Shown here piece by piece: positions 2,797-39,480 of a stretch of DNA of 64,000 nt (positions are counted from its first letter, which is position 1; each line of letters begins with the position of its first letter). Source of the DNA: Clostridium sp. GTDB lineage: Bacteria > Bacillota > Clostridia > Oscillospirales > Ruminococcaceae. Both the position numbers and the translations under genes were made by a program. Location: positions 1 to 64,000 of the forward strand of contig JAMPFN010000005.1 of the NCBI GenBank assembly GCA_023664445.1, in the 5' to 3' direction. The notes beneath the pieces are model-generated. The model was not told where the DNA came from. It did not search any database and was given only the letters and a program-made list of their open reading frames with translations.

Positions 2797-2858
2797 CAAT
2801 TGAATTAACATAATAAAACTGGCGCATAGGAAATATATTGGATAGGACGGTGACTCTT

Positions 2859-3983
2859 TTGAGTGAATGGAAAGACTGTATACTGAGTGATATAATTATT
2901 TTCAAAAACGGTAAAAAGAAACCGAGTAACGAAGGAATGTACCCCGTATATGGTGGGAATGGAATTCTTGGGTATGTCGATGATTATAATCTAAAGCACG
3001 GGATAGCAATCGGTCGAGTAGGTGTGTATTGTGGTAGCGTTTTTTATTCATCAAAAGAATGTTGGATATCAGATAATGCAATACAAGCTACTAATAAAGA
3101 TAGTTCAGACCTAATTTATGACTATTATCTGTTAAAATCTTTAAAGCTAAATGAAAGACGTATTGGAACAAGCCAGCCGCTTTTAACACAGGAAATACTT
3201 AATCGAATCGAAATTAAATGTCCACCATTACATACTCAAAGAAAGATTGCATCTGTTTTATCTGATATTGATAATAAAATCTCCCTAAACACAGCGATAA
3301 ATGAAAATTTAGAGCAGCAGGCACAGGCGATTTTTAAATCATGGTTTGTTGATTTTGAGCCATTCGGTGGGGTTATGCCTGCTGATTGGACTGAATGTGA
3401 GCTTGATTCAATATGTTCCTTGATAATCAAGGGTATAACGCCTAAATATGCAGAACAAACAGACCAACTTGTAATCAATCAGAAGTGCGTAAGGAATCAT
3501 CAGATAGACCTTTCTTTAGCTCGTTACCACGTTCCTAAAAAAATCAATGAAAAATGGCTTCGCTATGGTGACATTATCATTAATTCTACAGGAACAGGTA
3601 CATTAGGCAGAGCTGCGCAAGTATTATTTGAACCAAATAATTTGACGGTAGATTCTCATGTTACAATTATCAGACCTACAAAGGCGATTTATCAACATTA
3701 TCTTGGCTTTTGGGCTACATCGCATGAACATGATTTTGAAATGTTGCAGACAGGTAGTACAGGTCAAACGGACTTACCAAGAGAACGATTGAAACAAATG
3801 CAGGTGATTTTGCCGTCTGATAATGTTCTCGGTAGATTTATGGAGCTTGTAAAACCAATCTGTGATATTAGAATGAAGAATCAGCTTGAAAACGAAAGGC
3901 TTTCTACTCTCCGTGACACCCTCCTCCCAAAACTGATGAGCGAGGAAATAGATGTGTCGAAAGTAAAGATTCATGCGAAATAA
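2859..3983 (+). CDS. hsdS: Type I restriction-modification specificity subunit HsdS
   Basis: DNA-recognition subunit that sets the target of the methyltransferase and restriction complexes. It has two target recognition domains, each followed by a conserved helix: the central one around QRKIASVLSDIDNKI and the C-terminal one around LRDTLLPKLMSEEIDV. KSWFVDFEPF after the first helix is typical of the family. Length (about 374) is normal. There is no ATG: the start is probably TTG 2859 (MSEWKDC..., AGGACGG 9 nt upstream), with TTG 2838 as alternative. A weak start may keep HsdS below HsdM. The two target domains differ, implying an asymmetric bipartite target. Confidence 0.92.
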   Translation: MSEWKDCILSDIIIFKNGKKKPSNEGMYPVYGGNGILGYVDDYNLKHGIAIGRVGVYCGSVFYSSKECWISDNAIQATNKDSSDLIYDYYLLKSLKLNERRIGTSQPLLTQEILNRIEIKCPPLHTQRKIASVLSDIDNKISLNTAINENLEQQAQAIFKSWFVDFEPFGGVMPADWTECELDSICSLIIKGITPKYAEQTDQLVINQKCVRNHQIDLSLARYHVPKKINEKWLRYGDIIINSTGTGTLGRAAQVLFEPNNLTVDSHVTIIRPTKAIYQHYLGFWATSHEHDFEMLQTGSTGQTDLPRERLKQMQVILPSDNVLGRFMELVKPICDIRMKNQLENERLSTLRDTLLPKLMSEEIDVSKVKIHAK

Positions 3984-4017
3984 ACAAATACATATTTTAT
4001 AAATTGGAGGTTAAATT

Positions 4018-4686
4018 ATGAAAGTAGATGAAGTTAAAAGAATAATAAAACAAAATGGTTATACCATTGAAAGTGAAAAAAGGAGCGGAAATGACAAAGC
4101 AACTGTACTGACATTGAATAATGGTTGTCTTGTAAACTGTTGGGATAGTGGCAAAATTAATTGCCAAGGAAAAAATGTTAGTGAAGTCTCTCCGTTATTT
4201 GCAAAAGATAATAATACGCATTCTAAATGTCAGAACAATAAAGTGTTTGTGGTGTATGGGCATGACCATAATGCCCGAACACAATTAGAAGCTTTGTTAA
4301 GGCGCTGGGACTTAGAACCATTAATTTTAGATCAACTTGTATCATCTGGTCAAACAATTATTGAAAAACTGGAGGAATATATTTCTCAGGTCAATTTCGC
4401 AATTGTTTTAGCTACTCCCGATGATATTGGATATGCAAAAAATGATGAAGATAACAAAAAATACCGAGTACGTCAAAATGTTATTTTAGAGTTAGGAATG
4501 CTGCTTGCAAAAATTGGCAGAAAAAAAGTTGCTATACTATTATCACAAGCAGAGAATATGGAGTCTCCATCAGATATTCAAGGTTTATTATATATGCCAT
4601 TTAAAAATAATATCGAAGAGGCAAAGCTTTCGTTGGCAAAGGAAATGCAAAACAATGGATACAATTTAGATATACAAAAATTATAA
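4018..4686 (+). CDS. TIR-like nucleotide-binding effector (CAP12/Pycsar-TIR type)
   Basis: A 222-residue protein whose residues about 75-215 match the TIR-like domain of predicted nucleotide-binding proteins (the family that includes TIR effectors of CBASS and Pycsar). Visible marks are the first strand [14 protein letters not shown], the core ATPDDIGY, and [15 protein letters not shown], whose glutamate sits where TIR NADases carry the catalytic Glu. The N-terminal 60 residues form a small separate domain ([14 protein letters not shown]). GGAGG lies 6 nt before ATG 4018. It sits between hsdS and hsdR on the same strand, so it is cargo of the R-M operon. By analogy it would degrade NAD+ on activation; that is inference. 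Confidence 0.85.
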
Positions 4687-4703
4687 AATTCGGAGGTAAT
4701 TCC

Positions 4704-6851
4704 ATGCCCTACACCGAAGCAAGCTACGAAAACGCTATAATACAGCTTTTTGAGGAAATTGGTTATACGCACGTCTGCGGCTATGAGATCGACCGCGATT
4801 ACAAATGCCCGTTGTATATGGACGAGCTTGCTAACGCTCTTTACAAGCTAAACCCTATGCTTCCTGACAATGCGATAAGCGACGCGCTCTTTAAGCTCCA
4901 AAATTTCGAGAACGGCGAGCTTGTGCAGAAAAACGCCGTCTTTATGGACTATTTGCAAAACGGCATACAAGTACGCTATACCGAAAAGGGCGAGGAACGC
5001 TCCGCAATCTGTTACCTTGTGGACTATACGAATACAGACAACAACTCATTTGTTATTGCTAATCAATGGACATTCATTGAAAATGAGGAAAAACGCCCTG
5101 ATGTTTTGATTTTTTTGAACGGCTTGCCTGTTGTTCTTATGGAGCTGAAATCTCCGTCCCGTGAGGAAACGGACACTTCTGAAGCCTACACACAGATACG
5201 GAACTATATGCACTCTATCCCCTCTATGTTCATCTATAATGCAATATGCGTTATGAGCGACCTGTCCGAAAGCAAGGCAGGAACAATCACTTCTGGCGAA
5301 GATAGATATATGGATTGGAAAACCAAAGACGGTAGTTACGAAAATACGCAGTATGCACAGTTTGATACGTTTTTTGAGGGGATTTTTCAAAAAGACCGTC
5401 TGCTTGATATTCTGAAAAATTTTATTCTGTTTTCAAATGAGGGTTTACAGCAGTTTAAGATACTGGCAGGCTATCACCAGTATTTTGCTGTAAGAAAAGC
5501 CATAGAATCAACGAAAAAAGCCGTTATTACGGACGGAAAAGGCGGTGTTTTCTGGCATACTCAGGGCAGCGGAAAGTCGCTGTCTATGGTGTTTTATGCA
5601 CACTTGCTCCAATCAGAACTTGAAAGTCCGACTATTGTTGTTATCACAGACAGAAATGATCTGGACGATCAGCTCTATACTCAATTTGCAAAGTGCAAGG
5701 ATTTCCTTAGACAAGAGCCTTTTCACGCTGAAAGCCGTGAACATCTTAAAATGCTTCTTGACGGCAGAAAAGCTAATGGTATTATCTTCACCACTATGCA
5801 GAAATTTGAGGAATCCGGAGAGCCTCTGTCCGAACGCAGAAATATTATCGTTATGGCTGACGAGGCACATAGAGGGCAGTATGGTTTGACAGAAAAGATA
5901 AAAATGACAAAAAATGAGGACGGCGAACTTGTTGCAAGAAAAGTAATCGGCACGGCTCGTATTATTCGTAATACGCTCCCGAATGCTACATATATCGGCT
6001 TTACCGGAACGCCTATATCCAGAGAAGATAGAAATACCCGTGAGGTTTTCGGTGATTACATCGACATTTATGATATGACACAAGCTGTTGAGGACGGGGC
6101 AACTCGTCCTGTTTACTATGAAAGCCGTGTTATGAAGCTGAAACTTGACGAAAGCACATTGAAGCTGATAGACACGGAATACGACATTATGGCTATGAAT
6201 GCCGATGCTGATGTGATTGAAAAAAGCAAGCGTGAACTTGGACAAATGGAAGCAATCCTCGGTCATGATGATACCATAAAATCCCTTGTTGATGATATTC
6301 TCGATCATTATGAGAATTACCGTGAGAGCTTGCTGACAGGCAAGGCTATGATCGTTGCCTATTCAAGAGCTATCGCTATGAAGATATACAAGCGTATTCT
6401 TGAAATTCGCCCCGGTTGGGAAGAAAAGGTTGCGGTTGTAATGACAGCTTCTAATAAAGATCCCGAAGAATGGCATAGTATCATCGGCAACAAACGGCAC
6501 AAAGAGGAACTTGCAAAGAAATTCAAAGACAATGACAGTCCACTTAAAATTGCTATCGTAGTCGATATGTGGCTGACAGGTTTTGATGTTCCGTCCCTTG
6601 CGACGATGTATGTCTATAAGCCTATGATGGGCTATAATCTGATGCAGGCTATCGCTCGTGTCAATCGTGTGTTCCGTGACAAGGAGGGTGGTCTTGTAGT
6701 CGATTATGTCGGTATCGCAAGTGCCTTGAAACAGGCTATGATACGCAAACTCCTGAAAGATCATCGCTATCCGCCAGAGGGAATGGACGATGCGGTTACT
6801 ACGGTTATGAATCAGTGCGAGCTTTGGGCAGATAATATTATGAGCGTATAA
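4704..6851 (+). CDS. hsdR: Type I restriction endonuclease subunit HsdR, apparent internal deletion
   Basis: Translocase and nuclease subunit. N-terminal PD-(D/E)XK nuclease region with [20 protein letters not shown] (D...ExK), then a superfamily 2 helicase: Walker A (HTQGSGKS), DEAH box ([10 protein letters not shown]), motif III (GFTGTP) and motif VI ([16 protein letters not shown]). It is only 715 residues against about 950-1080 in the family. After [14 protein letters not shown] the protein passes directly to [19 protein letters not shown]...NQCELWADN, which resembles the extreme C-terminus of full-length HsdR, so about 250 codons seem lost in frame. DNA cleavage may be impaired; the motor domains look intact. 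Confidence 0.9.
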
Positions 6852-7617: not shown

Positions 7618-8130
7618 TTACAGCGTTTGCTGAAATATACGGTCGAGTCCGACTCTTTTAATCAGTATCTGCGCACAATTTCCCGTAAATGCTCCGGCAA
7701 TACATCCCGAAATGAGCAGAAAGGGAAAATATGCGATCACGGAAGTTGTTTTCATCATAATTACTGCTACGAAAATCTGCCCGATATTGTGCAGAATCGC
7801 ACCGAGTATACTGCAAATCCAGATGTGCTTTTCGTCAATTACACGTCTGAAAATCAGCATTCCGAATAAACAAAGTACCGCACCGACTAAACTGTAAAAT
7901 ATGGCACTGATATTACCTCCGAAAATTGAACCGAGAAAAATTCTTGTAATTACGACCATAAACGTTTCTTTCGCTGTACAGTGATACATAGCGTAAACAG
8001 TCACAATATTTGCAAGTCCAAGTTTCACTCCGGGGATCGGAACAAGATTCGGGATTCTCAGTTCCACAATAAAAATAATCAATGCAATCGTTGTCAGCAA
8101 TGCAAGCTGCGTGATTCTTTTTACATTCAT
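7618..8130 (-). CDS. Gx transporter family / heptaprenyl diphosphate synthase component I-like membrane protein (EetB-like)
   Basis: A 170-residue integral membrane protein with about five hydrophobic segments, of the Gx transporter (Hpre_diP_synt_I) family; IPGVKLGLANIVTVYAMY and the glycine-rich GSIFGGNISAIFYSLVG stretch are characteristic. Members resemble ECF-transporter S components and occur beside NusG-II and ApbE proteins; in the Listeria flavin-based extracellular electron transfer locus such proteins are called EetB. AGAGGTGA precedes the ATG. It is the last gene of a minus-strand operon after the NusG-II and apbE genes, so a role in moving flavin or quinone-linked electrons across the membrane is more likely here than prenyl synthesis. 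Confidence 0.85.
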   Translation of the reverse strand: MNVKRITQLALLTTIALIIFIVELRIPNLVPIPGVKLGLANIVTVYAMYHCTAKETFMVVITRIFLGSIFGGNISAIFYSLVGAVLCLFGMLIFRRVIDEKHIWICSILGAILHNIGQIFVAVIMMKTTSVIAYFPFLLISGCIAGAFTGNCAQILIKRVGLDRIFQQTL

Positions 8131-8131
8131 A

Positions 8132-8491
8132 TCATTTCACCTCTGCGTCTATATCATCATTTTCTGCGTACTCGATAACAAGCTTATTCGGCAGACACAC
8201 TATCGGATAATTTGAAAGCTTGCCTGTTTTTATGCAGATGCGGTCGGGACAATCGGCTTCCGACATAAAAATTTCATGATTTTCTATACAGATAATATTT
8301 TTTCTGCCCTGATATTCTACTTCAATTGTTTGATTTTCAGCTTGCTGTAAATCAATTGTATACAAAATCTTACCGTCCTGAATTACATTTACTGTCTTTC
8401 CGTGAGGTCTGAAAATTATCCATAAACTTCCGATTATTCCGATTGCAAAAATCAGAATGCAAACTGTAATCCATATTTTCTTATGTTTCAT
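8132..8491 (-). CDS. NusG domain II-containing membrane-anchored protein (EetA-like)
   Basis: A 119-residue protein: short cytoplasmic N-terminus, one membrane segment (residues about 6-28), then an extracytoplasmic NusG-domain-II beta barrel. The signature is the cysteine pair in EADCPDRICIKTG with a further cysteine in YPIVCLPNKLVIE, typical of these secreted NusG-II domains. It overlaps apbE by 4 bp and ends 1 bp before the Gx transporter gene, so the three are one translational unit. Families with this arrangement (EetA in Listeria) are linked to extracellular flavin electron transfer. It has nothing to do with transcription elongation despite the domain name. Confidence 0.85.
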   Translation of the reverse strand: MKHKKIWITVCILIFAIGIIGSLWIIFRPHGKTVNVIQDGKILYTIDLQQAENQTIEVEYQGRKNIICIENHEIFMSEADCPDRICIKTGKLSNYPIVCLPNKLVIEYAENDDIDAEVK

Positions 8492-9522
8492 TTCTGCACC
8501 ACATTTACTTTCAGATTGCCATATATTTCACTTAGCGAAAAACTGCTTTCAAGACCCTCTGTAATATAAATTTCACCGTCATCTGTCACAAGAATCATTT
8601 CAAAATTGTCACGCTGTTTCCACAGATTTTCAGCCTTTTCAAGTCCCATGACAAACAGCGACGTAGAAAGTGCATCGCAGAGCCGTCCCTCTTTTCCGAC
8701 AACTGTTACGGATACAAGTCCGCTATGCACTGGCTTTCCCGTTTTCGGATCGAGAATATGCCAGTATGTTTCACCGTCATCGCCGACAAAATACCGTTCA
8801 TAACCTCCCGAAGTGATAACTGCACAATCTGAAACTTCCAGCGTTGCAAAATTGCCCTCATCAAAAGGACTTCGCAGACCAAGCTTCCAATCTGTACCAT
8901 CAGGTTTTGTACCGATAGTCTGAATGTTTCCGCCCAAGTCAAGCAATGCAGATTCAATACCGTTTTCTTTCAACACTTCCGTTACTAAATCTCCCGTACA
9001 GCCTTTGCCGACTGCTCCTAAATCAATCTGCATATTTTTGGGAATAACAACATTATTGCCATTCAGATTTATTTTTTCGTAACCCGTATTGTCAAGCAGT
9101 TCACTTATTTTTTCATCAGTCGGGATTTTATACTCGCTTGTTGTAAAACCCCACTCCGTCAAAATCGGATAAATTGTACAATCCAAAGCTCCGTCCGTCA
9201 ATTCAGAGATATTCAATGAAAAATCAAGAAGTTCGGCTGTTTCAAGACTTACGGAAACGCTCTGACCGTTGCTGTGATTTATGGAATATATTTCACTATT
9301 TTCGTCTGTAACAGACCACAGATTCTCCAGTTCCGAAACTTTTTCCTCCGCCTGTTTTAACGCTGTTTCTGAATTTTCACCGTAGGCAGTAATCGTCATG
9401 TATGTATCCATTGCGAAAAATGATTTGCTTTGGGATTCAGTTACAGATTTTGATAATTGCTTTTCACATGAGGTAAAACATAATAGAATGGCTATCATTA
9501 TAAAGGAAAATATTTTTTTCAT
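8488..9522 (-). CDS. apbE: FAD:protein FMN transferase ApbE, lipoprotein
   Basis: Attaches FMN covalently to threonine of extracytoplasmic flavoproteins using FAD and Mg2+. The N-terminus (MKKIFSFIMIAILLCFTSC) is a lipoprotein signal with lipobox cysteine. FFAMDTYMTITAYG opens the ApbE domain; DLGAVGKGCTGDLV, ALLDLGGNIQTIG and YWHILDPKTGKPV carry the conserved binding residues. About 344 residues, normal. ATG 9522 is chosen because GGAGG lies just upstream. No FMN-acceptor protein with an obvious flavinylation site was found in the window, so its substrate must be encoded elsewhere or be unusual. Confidence 0.93.
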   Translation of the reverse strand: MKKIFSFIMIAILLCFTSCEKQLSKSVTESQSKSFFAMDTYMTITAYGENSETALKQAEEKVSELENLWSVTDENSEIYSINHSNGQSVSVSLETAELLDFSLNISELTDGALDCTIYPILTEWGFTTSEYKIPTDEKISELLDNTGYEKINLNGNNVVIPKNMQIDLGAVGKGCTGDLVTEVLKENGIESALLDLGGNIQTIGTKPDGTDWKLGLRSPFDEGNFATLEVSDCAVITSGGYERYFVGDDGETYWHILDPKTGKPVHSGLVSVTVVGKEGRLCDALSTSLFVMGLEKAENLWKQRDNFEMILVTDDGEIYITEGLESSFSLSEIYGNLKVNVVQK

Positions 9523-9564
9523 GCTTTTACCTCCATACATTCAGAATGTGAATTGATTTACTTC

Positions 9565-10752
9565 TTACTCAACAGAAAAAGTAATATTTTCCCTGCTGCC
9601 CAGTGTATCAAATACCGATAAATCAGAAGTCACCCTTCCAATCGGAATTACTTCCATTGTCAGATTCGGACGGCTTGTCTGTGCGTAGAAAATAGCCAAA
9701 GTATTATTGGTCGGGCAATAAGTAATATCGCCGTTTTCAAAATTCAGCTGACCGTCACCGCTGTTTTCAGGTGTTTTTGGCATACTTCCGTAATATTCAC
9801 GTCCGCCGTAGCCTAACATAGATACTGTGAGAGGCATCATTTCCATGATTTCCTTTGCAAGCGGCGTATCATAAATCACACCGTTCAGTTTATACTCACC
9901 GACAGAAATACTAATTGCTGTTTCTTCCTTTTTCAGCATTCCGATATTGTCAAGCCATTTTTCTACCGTTTCCTGTGAAGAAAGAATATTTCTTGAATCA
10001 ATTGCTGTACCTTCCGGTACATCTGACTGCGGACAGAGTTCAGTAATTACTCTTTCGCTGTTTCCTTTTCCATAGCCGTTGTGTGTACAGAATGGTATCA
10101 CCGTTTTTCCCGACAAATCATACTGATTCAGAAATGTATGAATTGCTCTCGGTATAGTTGTTGCCCATACAGGATAACCGATATATACAGTATCATACTG
10201 AGACATATCCAAAGATCCGCCAATAAGTTCAGGGAAAGCATTCTCTGCCATTTCTGCATGATTCCGGTCAACCACTTCATCAAAATCCTGTGAATACGGT
10301 TTGGCAACCTCAATGGAATACAAATCGCCGCCGACCTGTTTCTGAATCAGATTTGCAATATATTCCGTTGCACCGTATCTGTTATTATTTTCAACAACAA
10401 TGCTTGCAGACGTTGTTGCATCAGCTGTTTCAAAATTGCCTGAATTACGTCCGAGTGAAAAATAAGCAATCAGAGTTTTTCCCTCATTTTGCTGCTTAAT
10501 GTACTGTCTTTTCATCATACACAAATCAAATACATTCCATACTCCGTCTTTGCACAGATCATAATCTTTGCCGCTTAAATCAGGCGTTTCTTTACCAACC
10601 AGAAAATCCTGCAAGTTTTTGATATCCTCTATGGTATATTGTTTGTTTTCTGCGGCTTCTGCCAAATCTGATTGATTGTGAACCGATTCTGAAAGTGAAA
10701 ATGCAGAAACAGACAAAACAGCTGCCGCAGCAATAGACAGTATTTTTTTCAT
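9565..10752 (-). CDS. Secreted dockerin-like / flavodoxin / cyclophilin-like fusion protein
   Basis: Domain order: signal peptide (about 1-35), a half dockerin (TIEDIKNLQDFLVGK...DLCKDGVWNVFDLCMMKR, about 40-90) with one recognisable calcium loop, a flavodoxin domain (LIAYFSLGRNSGN...IGYPVWATTIPRAIHTFL, about 95-265), and a C-terminal cyclophilin-like beta domain (about 275-395). A flavodoxin outside the cell is unusual. It is transcribed with apbE and the eet-like genes or just ahead of them, pointing to extracellular redox work, perhaps quinone or flavin reduction. The dockerin suggests docking to a cohesin, though the first calcium repeat is missing. AGGAG lies 8 nt before ATG 10752; the GTG at 10761 is less likely. 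Confidence 0.88.
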   Translation of the reverse strand: MKKILSIAAAAVLSVSAFSLSESVHNQSDLAEAAENKQYTIEDIKNLQDFLVGKETPDLSGKDYDLCKDGVWNVFDLCMMKRQYIKQQNEGKTLIAYFSLGRNSGNFETADATTSASIVVENNNRYGATEYIANLIQKQVGGDLYSIEVAKPYSQDFDEVVDRNHAEMAENAFPELIGGSLDMSQYDTVYIGYPVWATTIPRAIHTFLNQYDLSGKTVIPFCTHNGYGKGNSERVITELCPQSDVPEGTAIDSRNILSSQETVEKWLDNIGMLKKEETAISISVGEYKLNGVIYDTPLAKEIMEMMPLTVSMLGYGGREYYGSMPKTPENSGDGQLNFENGDITYCPTNNTLAIFYAQTSRPNLTMEVIPIGRVTSDLSVFDTLGSRENITFSVE

Positions 10753-10792
10753 AAAAATCACTCCTGTTATTTGTAATTGATCTTATAAATAT

Positions 10793-10821
10793 ATTATAAG
10801 CCTATCTTGACTATATGTCAA
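10793..10821 (-). promoter_or_regulatory. Promoter of the dockerin-flavodoxin gene
   Basis: On the minus strand TTGACA (10821-10816), a 17-bp spacer, then TATAAT (10798-10793): a perfect consensus pair about 40 bp upstream of the start codon. Such a strong core promoter probably needs a repressor or an overlapping regulator site; the shared element at 10816-10852 overlaps its -35 box. Confidence 0.8.
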
Positions 10822-10950: not shown

Positions 10951-11835
10951 ATGGAATTGAGAGTATTGCGGTATTTCCTTACGGTAGTCAATGAAGAAAG
11001 CATAACCAAAGCGGCAGACGCACTGCATATCACACAGCCTACACTCAGCCGACAGCTTTCACAAATGGAAGAAGAAATGGGCATTAAGCTGTTTAAGAGA
11101 GGTTCAAGAAAAATCACGCTTACCAATGAGGGAATACTTCTTCGAAGACGTGCAGAGGAAATTTTACAGCTTGTGGAAAAAACTGAAAAGGAAATGACAG
11201 AACAAGAAAAGCTTGTTGACGGTGAGATTTCCATTGGCTGCGGCGAGCTTGCATCAGTTCATGTTGTAGCAGAATTGATAAAATCGTTTCAGGAACGATA
11301 TCCTCTTGTTCGCTATGATATTCACACAGCAAATGCCGATCATATTCGTGAACGTCTGGATAAAGGACTTACAGATATTGGCTTGTTATTAGAACCGGTG
11401 GATATTGAAAAATATGAGTTCATACGAATGAATGTCAAAGAAAAATGGGTCGTGCTTATGCGTCCCGACGATCCGCTTGCTGAAAAAGAATCCGTTACCC
11501 CGAAAGAGCTGTCAAAGCTGCCTGTATGTCTTGTTAAGCGTCCTCTTGTAAAAAATGAACTTGCAAGCTGGTTCGGGAATTATTTCAAAAAATTGCATAT
11601 TCAGTTTACAAGCAATATGAGTACAAACGCCGCTATCATGGTGAAAAACGGACTTACCTATGCGTTGGTATTAGAAGGCTCTTTGCCGTACTTGAGTACG
11701 GAACAGATCTGCTATCGTCCGCTTTCTCCCGAACTCACAGCAACAAGTGTTATTGCATGGAAACGTAATCAGCCACAAAGTCTTGCCGCTGCAAAATTTA
11801 TTGAGCATATACGCCATCATCTGTCACATAACTAA
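10951..11835 (+). CDS. LysR family transcriptional regulator
   Basis: 294 residues: N-terminal winged helix-turn-helix (LRYFLTVVNEESITKAADALHITQPTLSRQLSQMEEEMGIKLF) and a C-terminal periplasmic-binding-like effector domain. ATG 10951, preceded by AGAAAGGG, gives the canonical MELRVLRYF start; upstream in-frame codons are ignored. It is divergent from the dockerin-flavodoxin gene and convergent with the aldo/keto reductase gene, and the two dockerin-flavodoxin promoters share a sequence element, so this is the likely regulator of both redox units. The inducer is unknown. Confidence 0.93.
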   Translation: MELRVLRYFLTVVNEESITKAADALHITQPTLSRQLSQMEEEMGIKLFKRGSRKITLTNEGILLRRRAEEILQLVEKTEKEMTEQEKLVDGEISIGCGELASVHVVAELIKSFQERYPLVRYDIHTANADHIRERLDKGLTDIGLLLEPVDIEKYEFIRMNVKEKWVVLMRPDDPLAEKESVTPKELSKLPVCLVKRPLVKNELASWFGNYFKKLHIQFTSNMSTNAAIMVKNGLTYALVLEGSLPYLSTEQICYRPLSPELTATSVIAWKRNQPQSLAAAKFIEHIRHHLSHN

Positions 11836-11837: not shown

Positions 11838-11877
11838 AATACCGTTTGCCGAATATACGCAAACGGTATTTTGCTTT
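11838..11877. terminator. Bidirectional terminator between LysR and aldo/keto reductase genes
   Basis: AATACCGTTTGC (11838-11849) pairs perfectly with GCAAACGGTATT (11859-11870) over a 9-nt loop; TTTTGCTTT follows on the plus strand and a T-run (ATTTTTTAG) follows on the minus strand. It serves the two convergent genes. Confidence 0.85.
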
Positions 11878-12874
11878 AAGCGTGATTGAATTCCATTACG
11901 CCTACAAGCTTATGAGGAATGTAACATTCTTCAAGATACGCTGTTTCCTGTTCAGTCAGAGTTATGCCGACAGCTTTGACCGCTTCTTCAATATGACTGA
12001 TTTTGGTTGCGCCAACGATTGGCGACGTTACTTTTGTCAGAAGCCAGCCTAATGCGATTTGAGTTCGTGTCAGACCTTTTTTCTCAGCAAGTTCCTGTAC
12101 ACGCTGAATAATAACCCTATCCTGTTCGGAAGTCGCATCATACTTGCTTTTCTGCATATCGTCCAGTTCAATACGCTTGCTTAATTCATCAGTATCCTTT
12201 ACCAAGCGTCCCGATGCAAGCGGACTGTATGGTGTAAGCGCTATACCGCTGTCCTCACAGAAAGGCTTCATTTCACGTTCTTCTTCACGGAATATGAGAT
12301 TATAATGTCCCTGAACAGATACAAATTTAGCCCAGCCGTTTTTTTCAGCAATATTGTTTGCCTTTGCAAGCTGCCAAGCATAGCAGTTGGAAATGCCGAT
12401 AGCACGAACCTTTCCGGACTTCACGGCTTCATTTAACGCTTCCATAATTTCTTCAATGGACGTATGGTAATCCCACATATGACAGATATATAAATCAATG
12501 TAATCCATACCGAGATTTTTCAGGCTCGCATCAAGAGAATTGTTAATATGCTGTTTACCAGTAATTCCGTCTGCAATTTCTTCTGCACTCCGTGGAAGAA
12601 ATTTTGTCGCAATAACAATATCACTGCGGTTTGCAAGTGATTTCAGCGCCTTGCCTGTATGCTGTTCGCTTGTTCCGTTCTGATAGCCTATTGCTGTATC
12701 AAAAAAGTTAACGCCAAGCTCCAACGCTCTTTTTATAATATTATAACTGCTTGTTTCGTCTATCGCCCATTTATGGCTGCCTTCGTTGGCATTTCCGAAC
12801 CCCATACAGCCAAGGCAGATTCTCGATACATTCAGCTCTGAATTTCCTAATTTTGTATACTCCATTTTATTCAT
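11876..12874 (-). CDS. Aldo/keto reductase
   Basis: A 332-residue NADPH-dependent TIM-barrel oxidoreductase. Catalytic tetrad residues are visible: Asp in NFFDTAIGYQNG with its Tyr, Lys in IATKFLPR, and His in YICHMWDYHT. GCMGFGNANEGSH at the N-terminus and GWLLTKVTSPIVGATK near the C-terminus are typical of the group that acts on small aldehydes and ketones. ATG 12874 is chosen because AGGAGGA lies a few bases upstream; it starts 11 bp after the split flavodoxin gene and is cotranscribed with it. LysR regulator, flavodoxin and aldo/keto reductase sets are common in Firmicutes and suggest electrophile or quinone detoxification. Confidence 0.92.
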   Translation of the reverse strand: MNKMEYTKLGNSELNVSRICLGCMGFGNANEGSHKWAIDETSSYNIIKRALELGVNFFDTAIGYQNGTSEQHTGKALKSLANRSDIVIATKFLPRSAEEIADGITGKQHINNSLDASLKNLGMDYIDLYICHMWDYHTSIEEIMEALNEAVKSGKVRAIGISNCYAWQLAKANNIAEKNGWAKFVSVQGHYNLIFREEEREMKPFCEDSGIALTPYSPLASGRLVKDTDELSKRIELDDMQKSKYDATSEQDRVIIQRVQELAEKKGLTRTQIALGWLLTKVTSPIVGATKISHIEEAVKAVGITLTEQETAYLEECYIPHKLVGVMEFNHA

Positions 12875-12885
12875 AATAGATCCTC

Positions 12886-13356
12886 CTAATATAATTTTAA
12901 TTCTGAAAGCCATTCTGCAATCATATCTTCACAATTGGAAATATCTGACCGTGATATTCCAATCGGTTTAAGTATTGTGCAGTCCTTCGGCAATATCTCT
13001 GTAATATCGGATACTGTACCGGCAAGTCCGCCTGTCCCATGTGTGCAGAATGGAATTACCGTTTTTCCTGAAAAATCATAGCTTTCAAGGAACGTATCAA
13101 TAATACGGGGTTCTTCTCCCCACCAGATCGGATAGCCTAAGTATATAATATCATAATTTTCAATAGTGTTTGAAATTTCAGGTCTTGCCGTTTTGTCATT
13201 CTGCTCACGGTTCGCACGGCAATCAGTGTTGTAATTTAAATCTTCCGCCGTATATGGAACAGCAGGGATAATTTCAAATGTATCACTGCCGGTTTCTGTT
13301 TTCAGACGAGAAGCAATTGTTTCTGTATTTCCTGTGCATGAAAAATAAGCAATCAA
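12886..13356 (-). CDS. Flavodoxin, downstream half of a frameshifted dockerin-flavodoxin gene
   Basis: 156 residues of flavodoxin: FMN phosphate loop IAYFSCTGNTETIA, then YLGYPIWWGEEPRIIDTFL and GKTVIPFCTHGTGG, closely matching the flavodoxin domain of the intact dockerin-flavodoxin protein. No ATG or ribosome binding site precedes it: the frame begins at a TTG in a TTGA overlap with the stop of the dockerin half. It may be made only by translational coupling, or not at all. The flavodoxin domain itself looks complete and would be cytoplasmic if started here. Unlike the intact paralogue it lacks the cyclophilin-like tail. It is followed 11 bp later by the aldo/keto reductase gene. Confidence 0.75.
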   Translation of the reverse strand: MIAYFSCTGNTETIASRLKTETGSDTFEIIPAVPYTAEDLNYNTDCRANREQNDKTARPEISNTIENYDIIYLGYPIWWGEEPRIIDTFLESYDFSGKTVIPFCTHGTGGLAGTVSDITEILPKDCTILKPIGISRSDISNCEDMIAEWLSELKLY

Positions 13357-13619
13357 AATATCGCTCTTAGCTGAGGATTGTTCACCCCGTCTTTGTATAA
13401 ATCATAATCCTTGTCGCTTAAATCAACTGTTTCTCTGCCAACCAGAAAATCCTGTAAATTTTTGATGTCCTCTATCGTATAGACAGTTTCGCTGTCTGCG
13501 TGTACAGATTCAGACGTATTTGTAAAAACAGGAATAAATACCAAACAAAATGTAAGTATAATTCCCATAAAAACCGCAGAAATTCGTTTCATATTTATAA
13601 ATCTATTTAATTTTTTCAT
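13353..13619 (-). pseudogene. Dockerin leader of the split flavodoxin gene
   Basis: 88 residues: signal peptide (ISAVFMGIILTFCLVFIPVF region) and a half dockerin (YTIEDIKNLQDFLVGRETVDLSDKDYDLYKDG) almost identical to that of the intact paralogue. At KDGV the frame diverges (NNPQLRAIF, stop): the codons for the rest of the calcium loop and helix are deleted, and the downstream flavodoxin is in another frame. AGGAGG lies 8 nt before ATG 13619, and the promoter is intact, so the lesion looks recent. A sequencing error alone would not explain the missing codons. Confidence 0.7.
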
Positions 13620-13719: not shown

Positions 13720-14421
13720 TTATTGCGTATTCATGCACCTTTTCGCTTTTAAAGAAGATATTTTCATCATTCCTTTGGAGAGGTAAAAACCGATAAATAA
13801 CCAGAATCCCATCATGGCAATGTACCTAGCTAAAACAGATACTGCACCTTGTTCAAAATCAAAAAACACAAACTGATTTCTTAGAAACATATAAGATACA
13901 ATATCGTTTTTATGAAAACAAACCGCCCCATATCCGGCAATAAGAACTGCTGTCAAACGCATCAGCCATATCAGAACAAACGGCATTTTCTTTACCTTAC
14001 ATAGTTTTCTGAATATACCAAGCACCATAGACCAATGGAATCCAAGATGAACGCTCATCAGAACAAATCCCCAGTAGGAAGCAGATAAATGTATTTTTCT
14101 TGCCTCTGATATCGAACCGAAGTCAAATGCATCAAATACATAATGCGTCATTGTCATACCGCTGAATCCAAGATACAACATAGAAATTAGAACGCTGAAA
14201 TTGAGTATCGTTTGTAAAATCCGTAACGGCTTATATCTTCCTTTGAACAGATTCCTATACCATTTGAAATTCAGAATGTTATGAAATATGAACAGCAAAA
14301 GCATTCCAAGCCCAAGCCATTCATGTAGTTTCTGACCGGTAATCTGGTATGACATCAGAAGCAAAAGCAATATTGTCATCAGAGTATCAATGCAAATTTT
14401 TATTATCATTTTTGATTTCAT
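13720..14421 (-). CDS. DUF4405-family membrane protein, possible b-type cytochrome
   Basis: A 233-residue protein with about six membrane segments resembling DUF4405 proteins. Histidines fall in membrane helices in a haem-ligand-like pattern: KLHEWLGL, LFIFHNILN, MTHYVF, then KIHLSASYW and MSVHLGFHW. This suggests a membrane haem protein passing electrons from the quinone pool. ATG 14421 is chosen from the AGGTGAT eight bases upstream. Its neighbours are flavodoxin genes and fragments, which fits a redox role. Haem binding is inferred from histidine placement only; the family has no firm function known to me. Confidence 0.75.
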   Translation of the reverse strand: MKSKMIIKICIDTLMTILLLLLMSYQITGQKLHEWLGLGMLLLFIFHNILNFKWYRNLFKGRYKPLRILQTILNFSVLISMLYLGFSGMTMTHYVFDAFDFGSISEARKIHLSASYWGFVLMSVHLGFHWSMVLGIFRKLCKVKKMPFVLIWLMRLTAVLIAGYGAVCFHKNDIVSYMFLRNQFVFFDFEQGAVSVLARYIAMMGFWLFIGFYLSKGMMKISSLKAKRCMNTQ

Positions 14422-14443: not shown

Positions 14444-14580
14444 TCATTCTGCAAGAGAGAATGTTTCAATTCTATGCAGATCACCGCCGACTTCCTCAGC
14501 TATCATATCAGCAATATATTCCGTTGTGCCATAACAACTGTTTCCAACATCTACAATACTTGCCGATGCGGAAGCATCTA
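14444..14580 (-). pseudogene. Third flavodoxin fragment
   Basis: About 45 codons (ASIVDVGNSCYGTTEYIADMI...VGGDLHRIETFSLAE) match residues about 115-155 of the intact dockerin-flavodoxin protein. The 5' part is replaced by a serine-recombinase fragment and the 3' part ends abruptly before the DUF4405 gene. It has no start or promoter. This shows that the locus once held at least three flavodoxin genes. Confidence 0.7.
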
Positions 14581-15172
14581 TTATGACAGCACTGTATACA
14601 AGGCAAAGCTTAAAAAGTATGGCGTGCGTGTTCTGTCTGCAAGAGAAAATATAAGCGATGACGCAAGCGGAATTCTTATGGAAAGTGTACTTGAGGGCAT
14701 GGCTGAGTACTATTCTGCTGAATTGGCGCAAAAAGTAAAACGTGGTATGGACTTAAATGCTAAAAGGTGTCTTTCAACAGGCGGAAATGTAGCTTTAGGT
14801 TATAAAGTTGATAAAGACAAGCATTTTCAGATCGATACAAACTATTCTCATCTTGTAGAATACATATTTGAAAGTTATGCAAGCGGCAGTACGGTTACTG
14901 AAATAGTCAATTATCTGAATGACAAAGGTTACAAGACAGCAAAAGGCGCTAAGTTTCACAGAAGTACTGTAACACAAATTCTGCAAAACAAGCGCTATAT
15001 AGGTATCTACACCTACAAAGGTACTGAAACGCCTGACGGCATACCAAGGATAATTTCAGATGAGCTTTTCGACAAATCTGCTGAAAGAATGAGTAAAAAC
15101 AGAAAAGCCCTTGCCCATTCAAAGGCTCATTCAGCAACTATGATTTGCAATTTTGAGGGCTTTATCTCCTGA
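14579..15172 (+). pseudogene. Serine recombinase fragment (lacks catalytic N-terminus and C-terminus)
   Basis: From YYDSTVYKAKLKKYGVRV onward the frame matches large serine recombinases of the resolvase/invertase group: ENISDDASGILMESVLEGMAEYYSAELAQKVKRG closes the catalytic domain, and the following recombinase domain ends near SKNRKALAHSKAHSA. The N-terminal half with the nucleophilic serine is absent and replaced by antisense flavodoxin sequence; the zinc-ribbon and coiled-coil C-terminus are also gone. It cannot be active and marks a decayed integrative element next to the redox island. Confidence 0.8.
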
Positions 15173-34417: not shown

Positions 34418-35455
34418 TCATTTATCCTGTGAAGGCTGCTTTAATCTTTTTAATATTTCATTTGAAACCTGATCAATATTATCTCCGCCTTGGTAAGTAC
34501 AATGGGAGCAAAATTCAAAAGCTTCTCTCCCCTGTTCAACAAGTTTTATCTGTAATTGCCTTAATTTATCCGAATGCCAAATATCCCTAAGGCTTTCTTC
34601 ATTGACATTCCCATATACGACTGCAAATTTCCAATCAACGCAGCATCCGCTTACTGCGCCGTTGCTGTGTATTGTCATCTGATACAACGGCATTGAACAT
34701 AAATTTCCACTTCCGACAACTCTTTCATAATCCCATTTATCTGACGATTTTGCATTATTGTCTACTTTAAATTCGCTCCAGATTTCTTTGACATTTTCTA
34801 TAATACAACTGTCAGAGCAATTTTTAAACATATCAAAATAAGCTTTCTTTCTATCAGCTGTATTAAGCATAGTGTTTACAGCCTTGATCTGTATTATCAT
34901 ATTTTTATTTTTAGCAGTTTTTTTATTATAGAGATCTCTTATATTTTCAACAATGGTATTTATGTCAACATCTGCTCCGCATAAATTTTTATAATCGTTA
35001 TTATCTATTCCCTCAATAGATACTTTCAATACGTCAAGACCGCTATCGACAAGCTTATCATTAAGTTCCGGAGATAATAGCGATCCGTTGGTAACTGTTC
35101 TGATTTTACCTACAACATTATTATCCTTTAAATATTTTATCATTTCTATAAAGTTTTTGTTAAGCAGCGGTTCTCCGAAAGCATATAAATCAGCAACATG
35201 AATTTTTTGTTTAAATTCTTTCATATCGCCAACGATTTTTTTAAACAGCTCAAACGACATCATTTTATGTCGTTCTTCATTCATAAAATCCGAATTATTG
35301 CATGGACAAAATGAACACTTAAAATTACAAGCGCCGCAAGGATCAATATTAACAATAAAAGGCGCCTCTAATGGAACGACAGTTTCAAGGCGCGTTCTTG
35401 TGTTGGTATATTCCTTCACCTGCATATCTTTTATTAAGTCTTTATTTTCCGGCAT
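34418..35455 (-). CDS. Radical SAM/SPASM domain enzyme
   Basis: 345 residues. The [4Fe-4S] radical SAM motif is CNFKCSFC within DPCGACNFKCSFCPCNN; the core continues with YAFGEPLLNKNFIEMI and VTNGSLLSPE. A C-terminal SPASM cluster region has LCSMPLYQMTIHSNGAVSGCC and FEFCSHCTYQGG. GGAGG lies 5 nt before ATG 35455. It overlaps neuC by 14 bp and sits between the legionaminic genes and the glycosyltransferase, so it may deoxygenate, epimerise or otherwise modify the nonulosonic acid, or act on the acceptor. Substrate unknown. Confidence 0.88.
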   Translation of the reverse strand: MPENKDLIKDMQVKEYTNTRTRLETVVPLEAPFIVNIDPCGACNFKCSFCPCNNSDFMNEERHKMMSFELFKKIVGDMKEFKQKIHVADLYAFGEPLLNKNFIEMIKYLKDNNVVGKIRTVTNGSLLSPELNDKLVDSGLDVLKVSIEGIDNNDYKNLCGADVDINTIVENIRDLYNKKTAKNKNMIIQIKAVNTMLNTADRKKAYFDMFKNCSDSCIIENVKEIWSEFKVDNNAKSSDKWDYERVVGSGNLCSMPLYQMTIHSNGAVSGCCVDWKFAVVYGNVNEESLRDIWHSDKLRQLQIKLVEQGREAFEFCSHCTYQGGDNIDQVSNEILKRLKQPSQDK

Positions 35456-36608
35456 GATTACCTCCATTTTTTATATCATAAAAATTTTTTTTCAAATCAA
35501 CATTCTCCTTAAACGTTTCCTTTATGACCGAAAGAATTTGTTCTGATGTGTTACCGCTTCCATACAGAACAGATTTTTTATGTTCCATATTTAAAGCCGT
35601 TTTTATAGCTCCTTGTATTTCGCTGACTTTATTTCCACAGTTGATAATCGTTTCAGTCATCAATCTCCCCTTTTGTCTGTCACCTATATTAACCGTTGGC
35701 GTTCCTATTATAGGCGCCTCAATAATTCCGCTTGAAGAATTACCTAAAACAAATTCTGCATATCTTACTGCATTCAAATAGTTTTTCATTCCCAGTGATG
35801 AAACAAATTTTATATGATCATTTTTGACCGCATAGCTTTCAATTTTTTTATTGATTATTTCTCCGCCTGCATCCGAATTGGCTTTGGAAACAATAAAATA
35901 TAAATCTTCAAAAGAATTCATTGCTTCAAAAAGACAATCCACTTGTTCTTCGGCAGTATTGCATTCAAGGGTTACAGGATGAAATGTTACCATTGCATAC
36001 TTGCAGTTTTCAGGCAATTCCAATTCAGATAACAAATTATCTTTTTCGATCGCATCTATATTCAGAATATTTTCCGCTGCCAATGCTCCAAAATTAAAAA
36101 CTCTCGAGGGAGATTCGCCCAATTGAATTATTCGGTTTTTATATACTTCCGTAGATGCAAAATGAAGATAGCTCATTTTTGTTATTGCATGACGAATGCA
36201 ATCATCTACCGCGCCTTCGGACAATTCCCCTCCATGAATATGACATATCGGTATTCTTTCATTTAATGCCGCACAGGCTATTGCCAACATTTCGGTGCGA
36301 TCACCTAAAATAAAAACCAAGTCCGCTCGATCATCTCTGAAGTATTCCGCAAAAGCTTCAAGAGTCTTTGCCATTGAAACTGAAATATCATAAGAACTGT
36401 TGCCATCTGAATGTATCGGAATTTTCTTGTTTATGGGATAGCCGTCACTTATTATCTCATTTATTGTATATCCGTATTTTTCAGACAGATGTGTTCCGGT
36501 AACAATTAATTTCAATTCTATGTCCGAATCGTTATTCAATCTTTTTATCAGCGGATTCAATATACCATATTCCGCACGGGTTGCAGTAACAACAGCAGCT
36601 TTTATCAT
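35442..36608 (-). CDS. neuC: Hydrolysing UDP/GDP-N-acetyl-hexosamine 2-epimerase (NeuC/LegG)
   Basis: 388 residues, GT-B fold. TGTHLSEKYGYTINEI, FILGDRTEMLAIACAALNERIPICHIHGGELSEGAVDDCIRHAITK and LGNSSSGIIEAPIIGTPTVNIGDRQKGR are hallmarks of the hydrolysing 2-epimerases. In the legionaminic pathway the enzyme (LegG) removes the nucleotide from NDP-2,4-diacetamido-2,4,6-trideoxyglucose and gives the 6-deoxymannose derivative. It overlaps the synthase gene by 4 bp, and the whole set of neighbours argues for legionaminic rather than sialic acid. Confidence 0.93.
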   Translation of the reverse strand: MIKAAVVTATRAEYGILNPLIKRLNNDSDIELKLIVTGTHLSEKYGYTINEIISDGYPINKKIPIHSDGNSSYDISVSMAKTLEAFAEYFRDDRADLVFILGDRTEMLAIACAALNERIPICHIHGGELSEGAVDDCIRHAITKMSYLHFASTEVYKNRIIQLGESPSRVFNFGALAAENILNIDAIEKDNLLSELELPENCKYAMVTFHPVTLECNTAEEQVDCLFEAMNSFEDLYFIVSKANSDAGGEIINKKIESYAVKNDHIKFVSSLGMKNYLNAVRYAEFVLGNSSSGIIEAPIIGTPTVNIGDRQKGRLMTETIINCGNKVSEIQGAIKTALNMEHKKSVLYGSGNTSEQILSVIKETFKENVDLKKNFYDIKNGGNHAGK

Positions 36609-37612
36609 ACTTCCACCTCGGCAATTATAAGTTCGTCTTCTTCAAAATCTTTTACTGCTTTTGTTCCAATTACATCATACCACTTCATGGGACTCAAACC
36701 AATCCCGGGTCTTTTAACCGTAAGATTTTCTGCTGTAAATACTTCGCCCTTTTTTATATTTCTTTTAGCAACTATGCTTTTTCTTGCAGCTGATATATTC
36801 TTCAGTTCAGATTCCGTAGGTTTCTTTTGACCGTTACCTAAAGCCAATTCAATATTTCTGATAGAATCGACCATAGCTTTCAGTTCATCCGGCTCAAGAC
36901 TTGCCATATGATCCGGACCTTTCATTCTTCTATCCAATGTAAAATGTTTTTCAATGACTTCTGCTCCTAATGCAGCTGCGGCAATGGGGACATCTATACC
37001 TTTTGTATGATCTGAATAACCTACTGGAATCTTAAATAATCTTTCCATATGTTTCATCGCAAGAAGATTTACATCATTTAGCATTGTAGGATATTCCGTA
37101 TTGCAGTGCAGTAATGTTATATCAGTTGCGCCATTTTTTTTCAATATTTCAATTGTATCTTCTATTTCTGCAATTTCGCTCATTCCTGTAGACAAAACCA
37201 CCTTTTTTTTAGTTTTTCCGATTCTTTCAAGAAATGGCAAATTTGTTATTTCTCCTGATGGAATCTTCCAAAAATCCATGCCCAGACTGTCAAGAAAATC
37301 TATACTGACCAAGTCAAAAGGAGTAGAAATAAAACCTATTTCCTTTTCGTCGCAATATTGTTTAAGCTCTCTGAAATCTTCCTGAGTCAGCGCAAGCCTT
37401 TCTAACATTTGCAGCTGTGTTTCATTTTTATTTGTCGTATTGTTTTGATATTCAGCTTTCTGCGCATATTTAGATACGAGATTTTCAGGAACAAAGGTTT
37501 GAAATTTAATATAATCGACTCCCGCTTCTTTAGCCTTTATAACCATTTTTTTTGCAGTATTAATATCTCCATTATGATTAACGCCTGCTTCTGCTATAAT
37601 TATTCTATGCAT
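36605..37612 (-). CDS. neuB: Nonulosonic acid synthase (NeuB/LegI)
   Basis: 335 residues. TIM barrel condensing phosphoenolpyruvate with a 6-carbon sugar: AEAGVNHNGDINTAKKMVIKAKEAGVDYIKFQTF, LSTGMSE, YSDHTKG and EKHFTLDRRMKGPDH are conserved. A C-terminal SAF antifreeze-like domain follows (GEVFTAENLTVKRPGIGLSPMKW). The context (legB, legC, acetyltransferase, hydrolysing epimerase) points to legionaminic acid synthase LegI. No CMP-nonulosonate synthetase gene is found in the window. Confidence 0.95.
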   Translation of the reverse strand: MHRIIIAEAGVNHNGDINTAKKMVIKAKEAGVDYIKFQTFVPENLVSKYAQKAEYQNNTTNKNETQLQMLERLALTQEDFRELKQYCDEKEIGFISTPFDLVSIDFLDSLGMDFWKIPSGEITNLPFLERIGKTKKKVVLSTGMSEIAEIEDTIEILKKNGATDITLLHCNTEYPTMLNDVNLLAMKHMERLFKIPVGYSDHTKGIDVPIAAAALGAEVIEKHFTLDRRMKGPDHMASLEPDELKAMVDSIRNIELALGNGQKKPTESELKNISAARKSIVAKRNIKKGEVFTAENLTVKRPGIGLSPMKWYDVIGTKAVKDFEEDELIIAEVEV

Positions 37613-37613
37613 A

Positions 37614-38240
37614 TTAATTTATTTTCCTTCCCGGAACCCCAACAATAGCATCTCCGTTTTCAACATTTCTGATTATTGAGGAACCTGCGCCTATTGTCGC
37701 AAAGCTGCCTATCTTTATTCCCTGGATAACCGTTGATCCTGCACCGATAAAAGAATGATCTCCTACATAAACATTTCCGCATAATATAGCTCCGACAGCA
37801 ACATGACTAAAATCGCCTATTATACATTCATGTTCAACTATAGCGCCGGTATTGATAATTGACATTTTTCCTACAAAAGCATAAGCGTTAACGACAGCTT
37901 TTTTTCCTATGAAAACTCCCTGTCCTATTTTTGCATTTCTCGAAATAACAGCCGACGGATCAATTATAGTTGGAACATCAAAACCAATATCAATCAATTG
38001 GCTGTATATATTATCTCTTAATCTGCTGTTTCCCATAAATCCTATGCCAATAGCAGCATTTTTAATGCCGTTTTTAAATAGATTATTCAAAACCTCATCT
38101 GTTCCAAGATAAGGCAATCGGCTTTCATTATTCTCTTTTATATCAACATATCCGACAATATTATATCTATTCATGGATATTATTGTGTCCTCAACGCTTT
38201 TTCCGTTTCCACCATAACCTATAAGGATAATATCATCCAT
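37614..38240 (-). CDS. NeuD/PglD-type sugar O/N-acetyltransferase (LegH-like)
   Basis: 208 residues: N-terminal Rossmann-like sugar-binding domain (DDIILIGYGGNGKSV) and a left-handed beta helix of hexapeptide repeats (ISRNAKIGQGVFIGKKAVVNAYAFVG... IGAGSTVIQGIKIG). EHECIIGDFSHVAVGA carries the conserved catalytic histidine found in PglD. In the legionaminic pathway LegH acetylates the 4-amino group made by LegC, whose gene ends 3 bp upstream. Its start is at 38240 and it is followed after one base by the synthase gene. Confidence 0.9.
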   Translation of the reverse strand: MDDIILIGYGGNGKSVEDTIISMNRYNIVGYVDIKENNESRLPYLGTDEVLNNLFKNGIKNAAIGIGFMGNSRLRDNIYSQLIDIGFDVPTIIDPSAVISRNAKIGQGVFIGKKAVVNAYAFVGKMSIINTGAIVEHECIIGDFSHVAVGAILCGNVYVGDHSFIGAGSTVIQGIKIGSFATIGAGSSIIRNVENGDAIVGVPGRKIN

Positions 38241-38243
38241 TTA

Positions 38244-39440
38244 TTACTCTCCTGTGTTTTTACAAGAATACTTATTCAATATTTCTATTAGATTTTCAGC
38301 TGTATATTTTATATCGGCTTCAGTTAAATTAGTGCTGCATGGAATATTAATAATACGCTCACTATAGTATAATGCCGTTTCGATTTTATATGCTCCGGAT
38401 TCCATATATGGTTTTTGCAGATGAATAAGACCCCATACAGGTCGTGTTTGTATTCCTCTTTTATTTAATTCTCCAATTAATTCTTTTGTTGATATATTTA
38501 TATGTTTTTTATCTATGTCCAAGGAATAAAACCACTGATTAGAATAAGTATTTTCTCTGAATTCCAATAGCTTTGCATATTCAAAATCTTTTAACAGCTC
38601 TTTGTATAAATTCCAATTTTTATGTTTACGTTCTATAAACTTCGGCAAATATTCTAATTGTGCAACACCTATAGCTGCCTGAAGATTGGTCATTCTATAA
38701 TTAAATCCTATTTCATTATGTATATAAAACAGTACATCGTCTTTACATTGAGTGGATTTATAACGAATGTGCCGTACCGAATCGGCGTCCAAAGCAGTAA
38801 CCGCTCCACCTCCGCCTGTAGTAATAATCTTATTTCCGTTAAATGAAAAAGTGCCGAAATCTCCGATAGTTCCTGCAAATTTTCCTTTATACTTTCCTTC
38901 TGTATAACGGCTTCCCAAAGCTTCTGTTGCGTCCTCTATGACCTTGAGATTATATTTTTCCGCAATTTCCATTATAGCTTCCATATCGGCTAAATTGCCA
39001 AATACATGAACTACTACAATCGCCTTTACATGACTGCCATTTTTTTTCAGATGAAGTTCGTTGTTTTCAAATATGCATTCTTGTTCACAAAATTGCCTTA
39101 GTTTAATAGGATCTATGCAAAGGCTATCATCACAATCCATAAAATAAGGATCTGCAAATTGATATTTAACCGGATTTACTGCTGCAATAAATGTAAGTGT
39201 CGGAACAATTACCGTATCGCCCGGCAAAACATTGCACTCCATTAATGATAAATGAATTGCACTTGTTCCGCTTTGACATGCGCATACATCCGAGACGTTT
39301 ATATATTCTGCCAATTTATCTTCCAGTTCGGTAATATAAGCGCCGCCTGTTGAAACCCAGCCCTGTTTAACAGCTGAATTAACATATTTAAGTTCATTTC
39401 CTTCAAAATTAGGCACAGACAACGGTATGTAATGATCCAT
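38244..39440 (-). CDS. legC: LegC-type PLP aminotransferase
   Basis: About 398 residues, DegT/DnrJ/EryC1/StrS family. IPLSVPNFEGNELKYVNSAVKQGWVSTGG is characteristic of the LegC branch; the PLP site shows IEDATEALGS, and the Schiff-base lysine in FSFNGNKIITTGGGG. Installs the 4-amino group on the 4-keto sugar produced by LegB. ATG 39440 gives a standard start; a TTG codon lies 12 bp further out. Confidence 0.93.
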   Translation of the reverse strand: MDHYIPLSVPNFEGNELKYVNSAVKQGWVSTGGAYITELEDKLAEYINVSDVCACQSGTSAIHLSLMECNVLPGDTVIVPTLTFIAAVNPVKYQFADPYFMDCDDSLCIDPIKLRQFCEQECIFENNELHLKKNGSHVKAIVVVHVFGNLADMEAIMEIAEKYNLKVIEDATEALGSRYTEGKYKGKFAGTIGDFGTFSFNGNKIITTGGGGAVTALDADSVRHIRYKSTQCKDDVLFYIHNEIGFNYRMTNLQAAIGVAQLEYLPKFIERKHKNWNLYKELLKDFEYAKLLEFRENTYSNQWFYSLDIDKKHINISTKELIGELNKRGIQTRPVWGLIHLQKPYMESGAYKIETALYYSERIINIPCSTNLTEADIKYTAENLIEILNKYSCKNTGE

Positions 39441-39480
39441 TTTTTCACCCAAAGCCTTTCTTTTAATACGATACTATTTT

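Follow-up and report, generated by a model that had tools for sequence, protein, structure and literature searches.

Background

Exported flavodoxins that carry their flavin covalently were described by Huang et al. (2024, mSystems, PMC11334425), who showed that two Flavodoxin_4 proteins from Anaerocolumna xylanovorans and Desulfosporosinus lacus, in which an insert follows strand 1 and precedes helix 1, are flavinylated by a linked ApbE. The modification requires the Ser/Thr of the site and is abolished by Ala substitution. Clusters in Oscillospiraceae bring together apbE, a DUF4405 cytochrome, the flavinylated Flavodoxin_4 protein and a flavin transporter, and heme b binding was shown for an Oscillospiraceae DUF4405 member (PMC11334425). 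The residue that ApbE modifies is the Ser/Thr at the end of D-x-x-[ST]-G-A-[ST] (PMC12052999). Here we examine a related gene set at positions 7618 to 10821, on the minus strand, of a 64,000-nucleotide stretch of contig JAMPFN010000005.1 (Clostridium sp., Ruminococcaceae; GCA_023664445.1), referred to below as the window. Its first gene encodes an exported flavodoxin with a short "half-dockerin" and a cyclophilin-like tail.

Three further systems bear on this locus. Listeria combines flavin export through EetB/FmnA with flavinylation by FmnB. PF07456 is the family used to define eetB, whose product binds flavin adenine dinucleotide (FAD) and is needed for FAD export; eetB co-localises with Rnf and many other ApbE systems, and deletion of eetA gave no extracellular electron transfer (EET) phenotype (PMC9973259). 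In Ruminococcus flavefaciens, the short "half" dockerins of group 2 bind cohesins with a Ka of 10^6-10^7 M^-1 (PMC5301203). Dockerin and cohesin modules also occur outside cellulose breakdown in anaerobic methanotrophic (ANME) archaea, organisms with EET; the available part of that report describes no flavodoxin or ApbE link, and these archaea are without scaffoldins (PMC9012536).

The present locus resembles the system of Huang et al. in its Flavodoxin_4 insert with an ApbE-type site, linked apbE, flavin transporter and DUF4405 protein. Because flavinylated Flavodoxin_4 clusters are already published, and a DUF4405 gene lies 3 kb away, this core is the known system and not Listeria-type EET. 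A sequence-only reading of this DNA knew of no described system of this type, a view that the 2024 publication does not support. The locus differs from that system (PMC11334425) in its N-terminal half-dockerin, the lack of a lipobox and the cyclophilin-like tail, and in that DUF4405 belongs to a separate transcription unit upstream. Neither a dockerin-tagged flavodoxin nor the wider half-dockerin redox set was found in the open-access literature searched, and the half-dockerin tag is possibly a new part of the system. We lean towards the view that the exported flavodoxin is a covalently flavinylated electron carrier, docked via its half-dockerin on the cellulosome or the cell surface.

The flavodoxin operon and its candidate flavinylation site

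The genes are ordered flavodoxin, ApbE, NusG_II protein and PF07456 protein in the direction of transcription (Table 1), and the NusG_II protein is one that we take to be EetA-like from gene context. Reading the four as one operon is sound on sequence grounds, because the sole full promoter match of the region lies upstream (although promoter-like sites overall are not above shuffles), ribosome-binding sites precede ATG 10752 of the flavodoxin and ATG 9522 of ApbE, and only 42 nt separate the flavodoxin stop from the ApbE start. In addition, a sequence scan detected no terminator-like site between the operon genes, the 42-nt gap included, the ApbE and NusG_II genes overlap by 4 nt, and a single nucleotide lies between the NusG_II and EetB-like genes. 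All four open reading frames of the sequence-only reading were recovered in place and on the same strand, and its EetB-like and ApbE assignments agree with Pfam; for the flavodoxin the gene stood and only its start had to be corrected, to ATG 10752. Its proposal that the genes are cotranscribed is likewise favored by promoter, spacing and lack of a terminator, with the exported flavodoxin heading a unit for flavin export and attachment.

Secretion of the flavodoxin, also proposed earlier, agrees with the signal peptide at its N-terminus, which argues against a cytoplasmic location. An AlphaFold2 model (mean pLDDT 85.9) found its best Foldseek matches in the Flavodoxin_4 structures 4ici, 4j8p and 3klb and in 1zx8, the atypical cyclophilin TM1367, and Pfam also recognizes the cyclophilin-like tail that had been noticed before. 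What the sequence-only reading overlooked was the DATTSAS insert, together with the DUF4405 gene and a broken second flavodoxin copy at 12886-13619. The insert sits between strand 92-97 and helix 128-140 of the model, where local pLDDT is near 70-80, and its putative acceptor is Ser117 (codon 10402-10404). In an alignment of flavodoxins (A2) the D, A and S of the motif are invariant, and 44 relatives bear it, mostly as D-[AT]-x-[AST]-[SG]-A-S. Export was predicted heuristically for 41/44 motif-bearing flavodoxins vs 80/121 without the motif (p=3e-4, shared ancestry not corrected), and the remaining three show a signal peptide or lipobox after correction of a start or truncation.

Genome-wide searches identified two ApbE proteins and one FMN_bind protein, RnfG. 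The rnf locus carries its own ApbE-NusG_II-PF07456 set, while the second set, in the window, is co-directional with the flavodoxin. Since RnfG is thus provided for and the flavodoxin is the nearest candidate substrate, the operon ApbE probably serves the adjoining flavodoxin. The two could also be chance neighbors, in which case ApbE would act on RnfG/RnfD or on other proteins, and the flavin mononucleotide (FMN) of the flavodoxin would be bound non-covalently. Such an arrangement would fit the closest ApbE cassettes of the order, most of which have no flavodoxin neighbor, and the existence of half-dockerin flavodoxins without the motif, including those of two genomes (G143 and G147) in which no ApbE was found. 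However, the same-strand 42-nt spacing, the DATTSAS motif, the separate ApbE of the Rnf locus, the recurrence of the linkage in distant lineages and the published flavinylation of such flavodoxins (PMC11334425) make chance association very unlikely.

The linkage between flavodoxin and ApbE, on which the sequence-only reading partly hung, does occur in relatives, but in a minority of them. In Ca. Cryptoclostridium obscurum (L154), nine co-directional genes run fld-AKR-fld(DAVASAS)-hydrolase-FMNred-DUF4405-ApbE-NusG_II-PF07456 (AKR, aldo-keto reductase). Thomasclavelia (L146) has a DALTSAS flavodoxin together with ApbE, NusG_II and PF07456, a sister species of the genus (L078) has a double flavodoxin (DASAGAS) 50 nt before ApbE, and locus L236 shows the linkage as well. 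Across 79 distant loci, the motif showed no significant association with proximity to ApbE (Fisher test). One of the four ApbE loci in that test (L182) is spurious, a 19-bit match that falls within a flavodoxin; by a rough count without it, three ApbE loci stand against about 0.4 expected (p ~0.01). A constant association of the ApbE cassette with such flavodoxins was rejected on the count for the closest loci given below.

The half-dockerin module

The module retains the first helix and second repeat of a dockerin (D-L-C-K-D-G-V-W-N-V-F-D..KR). Pfam Dockerin_1 does not match it in the flavodoxin, and sister half-dockerin proteins fall just under the Pfam threshold, with matches that begin at profile position 8, 14 or 18. 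By hhalign, it aligned over 52 columns with 16 canonical dockerins from the host genome (98.2% probability, E 5.5e-14), so that the dockerin-like half-domain seen by the sequence-only reading is real. The alignment begins at canonical column 10, and D1, N3 and D5 of loop 1 are lost. The module does not contain two complete Ca2+-binding repeats: the second (N-V-F-D-x4-K-R) is complete except for position 3, and a full dockerin was rejected because the first Ca2+ loop lacks its start. Dockerins of CelS led a profile search of the PDB (E 0.004). Foldseek with the isolated module model returned dockerins as 12/14 matches, all with E > 1, and VIA-align gave Z <=4.1, results that are supportive only.

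Across proteins with quite different partners, the module is 51-76% identical to that of the flavodoxin, and NVFDLC.MKR is invariant. About 25 proteins of cellulosomal Oscillospirales, most of them exported, share it; the partners of the 28 proteins that score over 45 bits are flavodoxins, aldo-keto reductases, cyclophilin-like domains, alpha/beta hydrolases/esterases and DUF362, with a few unassigned. In a family sample of 298 genomes, 23 match the module at E 1e-8. The weaker matches among them are probably ordinary dockerins; among the open reading frames examined, scores of ~57 bits or more are confined to three genera, and one genome (G105) has a weaker-scoring tagged cyclophilin-like protein. 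Searches of the host genome gave 82 matches to dockerins and 6 to cohesins, and cohesins were found in all 8 of the half-dockerin genomes checked. The module resembles the group-2 dockerins of R. flavefaciens FD-1 in having one recognizable Ca2+ repeat, on exported proteins, in a cellulosomal Ruminococcus (PMC2930009, PMC5301203), but differs in being attached to redox enzymes and hydrolases.

A lipobox occurs in 3/14 of the exported flavodoxins that carry the half-dockerin vs 70/104 of those that do not (p=0.002, shared ancestry not corrected). Close relatives without a dockerin (L140, L184 and L076:8842-9960; 53-55% identity) have lipoprotein-like or hydrophobic N-termini instead. The pattern suggests that the half-dockerin replaces the lipid anchor, and, because the module is associated with lipobox absence, an exchange of lipid for dockerin is the simplest reading.

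Comparison with the Listeria pathway

The sequence-only reading took these genes for a typical unit for extracytoplasmic flavin electron transfer; to call them an EET gene set is too strong. The locus does share with Listeria a PF07456 component, an ApbE-type transferase and, by context, an EetA-like protein, and therefore has both the EetB (PF07456) and the ApbE-type transferase by which a FLEET locus is recognized. However, the genome contains no PplA-like FMN_bind lipoprotein, its only FMN_bind protein being RnfG, and no UbiA prenyltransferase (PF01040, for demethylmenaquinone) was found although assembly is 99.95% complete and 14/14 control genomes were positive. The predicted substrate is a flavodoxin and not FMN_bind domains. 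A Listeria-type chain reducing iron or an electrode would account for the ApbE, NusG_II and PF07456 genes common to both loci (PMC9973259), but the wide company that eetB keeps and the silent eetA deletion weaken that likeness. With PplA and UbiA missing we rejected such a chain, which is most improbable.

Proposed mechanism

We propose that the EetB-like protein, with energy-coupling factor (ECF) partners and some contribution from the NusG_II protein, brings FAD across the membrane. The lipoprotein ApbE would then transfer FMN from FAD to Ser117 of the insert, and the covalent FMN would sit in the flavodoxin pocket and so could not be lost outside the cell. Electrons would likely enter from the nearby DUF4405 cytochrome and pass through the flavodoxin to a final acceptor. 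With a half-dockerin in place of a lipid anchor, the one complete repeat may plug the carrier into a cohesin, either on the cellulosome or on the cell surface; anchoring on a cohesin scaffold, as first suggested from the sequence, is plausible.

Several observations weigh against this proposal. Position 5 of DATTSAS is Ser and not Gly, and a Gly to Ala change there lowered flavinylation elsewhere (PMC12052999), although Ser is the commonest residue at this position in the flavodoxin group (27/44). A motif-bearing flavodoxin lies near only 1/40 of the closest ApbE loci of the order. The genome lacks UbiA, needed for a quinone, which bears on how DUF4405 would receive its electrons. Most copies of the module have C or Y at position 3 of the Ca2+ loop that is left, and the 3/14 half-dockerin flavodoxins that are also lipoproteins indicate that a lipid anchor can accompany the tag. 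Finally, R. flavefaciens group 2 keeps the first repeat, at the C-terminus, whereas our module keeps the second repeat and helix 1 and is mostly N-terminal (PMC2930009).

The flavodoxin might instead be flavinylated and exported but free in the cell wall space, its half-dockerin a degenerate or repurposed spacer that does not bind. The missing start of loop 1, the altered loop 2, the sub-threshold Pfam scores and the lipobox on some tagged proteins would all be expected of such a spacer. However, decay would not preserve the recognition helix, nor does it fit the conservation of the module among different partners or its association with lipobox absence, and we regard a spacer as rather unlikely. 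Beyond the docked, covalently flavinylated carrier that we prefer, it is possible, and we suggest it tentatively, that cellulosomal Oscillospirales use a dedicated short dockerin to label flavodoxins with covalent FMN, aldo-keto reductases, cyclophilin-like proteins and DUF362 proteins as a set of exported redox proteins and to mount them on cohesins. Part of the cellulosome or of the cell surface would then act as an electron-transfer complex beside fibre breakdown.

Neighboring genes and other observations

Upstream of the operon, the window holds an eroded flavodoxin array, so read because 12886-13619 and 14462-14581 match intact genes of the array in a sister species (L076). The two broken frames of the first are 75% and 68% identical to L076:10205-11509. 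The DUF4405 gene is the only one in the genome, which thus has a DUF4405 cytochrome-like protein while lacking UbiA. A LysR regulator 60-65% identical to that of the window adjoins motif-bearing flavodoxins in L184 and L130.

Table 1. Features of the operon and its surroundings (window positions).
Feature	Position	Strand	Basis or remark
EetB-like FAD-export S-component	7618..8130	-	PF07456, E 7e-40 (Pfam)
NusG_II domain membrane protein (EetA-like, presumed)	8132..8491	-	PF07009, E 1e-25 (Pfam)
ApbE flavin transferase, lipoprotein (LLCFTSC)	8488..9522	-	PF02424, E 2e-84
Exported half-dockerin/Flavodoxin_4/cyclophilin-like protein	9565..10752	-	395 aa from ATG 10752; open frame from GTG 10761
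Cyclophilin-like tail (PF18050, Cyclophil_like2)	9568..9915	-	Pfam E 2e-18; fold match 1zx8
Flavodoxin_4 domain, insert between strand 1 and helix 1	9934..10479	-	PF12682, Pfam E 4e-26
DATTSAS, putative ApbE flavinylation site	10402..10422	-	flavodoxin residues 111-117; resembles D-x-x-[ST]-G-A-[ST]
Half-dockerin, residues 39-88	10489..10638	-	first Ca2+ loop lacks its start
Signal peptide and linker, no lipobox cysteine (MKKILSIAAAAVLSVSAFSLSESVH...)	10639..10752	-	sequence; hydropathy/lipobox heuristic
Promoter-like TTGACA-17-TATAAT	10793..10821	-	12/12 consensus positions; upstream of flavodoxin operon
LysR-type regulator, divergent from operon	10951..11835	+	Pfam
Cytoplasmic aldo/keto reductase, typical neighbor	11876..12913	-	Pfam
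Second half-dockerin flavodoxin, broken into two frames (13353-13619, 12886-13356)	12886..13619	-	sequence comparison
DUF4405 membrane cytochrome b-like protein, His residues kept	13720..14421	-	PF14358, 33.3 bits, cut-off 26.7
Remnant of another motif-bearing flavodoxin (DASASAS)	14462..14581	-	80% identity over 40 aa to L076:8842-9960

Other half-dockerin proteins were also noted. The host genome (G000) encodes an exported half-dockerin aldo-keto reductase (L039:6048-7256, C154) and a lipoprotein that fuses half-dockerin, flavodoxin and aldo-keto reductase (L041:6716-8335, C80). The export of aldo-keto reductases is odd, since the outside of the cell offers no NADPH; loss of their NADP-binding residues was considered and set aside as a subfamily trait, also found in non-exported members. 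In genome G008 (C59), one frame (L076:5194-7365) joins a DUF4405 membrane part, a sulfatase-modifying-factor-like stretch and a flavodoxin. Another frame there (L076:1596-3656) encodes a half-dockerin protein with an FGE-sulfatase domain between two flavodoxins. Three half-dockerin lipoproteins of ~400 aa adjoin redox genes (L117:4416-5630, L120:2050-3246 and L077:3247-4470); Pfam places a DUF362 domain in the first, and the other two look homologous.

Elsewhere in the window, type I restriction S-like and R-like genes (2838-6851) flank a gene at 4018-4686 resembling TIR-like nucleotide-binding proteins, and a large sugar-nucleotide cluster with NeuB-like and NeuC-like genes (34418-48476) likely serves a surface glycan containing a legionaminic-type acid.

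Significance

Because Pfam hardly sees this short dockerin with its single repeat, dockerins are undercounted in such genomes. It is the cohesin step that decides how interesting the dockerin version of this system is. If the half-dockerin binds cohesins, covalent-flavin redox proteins would be part of, or lie beside, the natural cellulosome. Many uncharacterized exported flavodoxins would then be given a place and a handle, and gut fibre degraders would gain a way to dispose of electrons at their surface or to reduce compounds of plant or microbial origin there.

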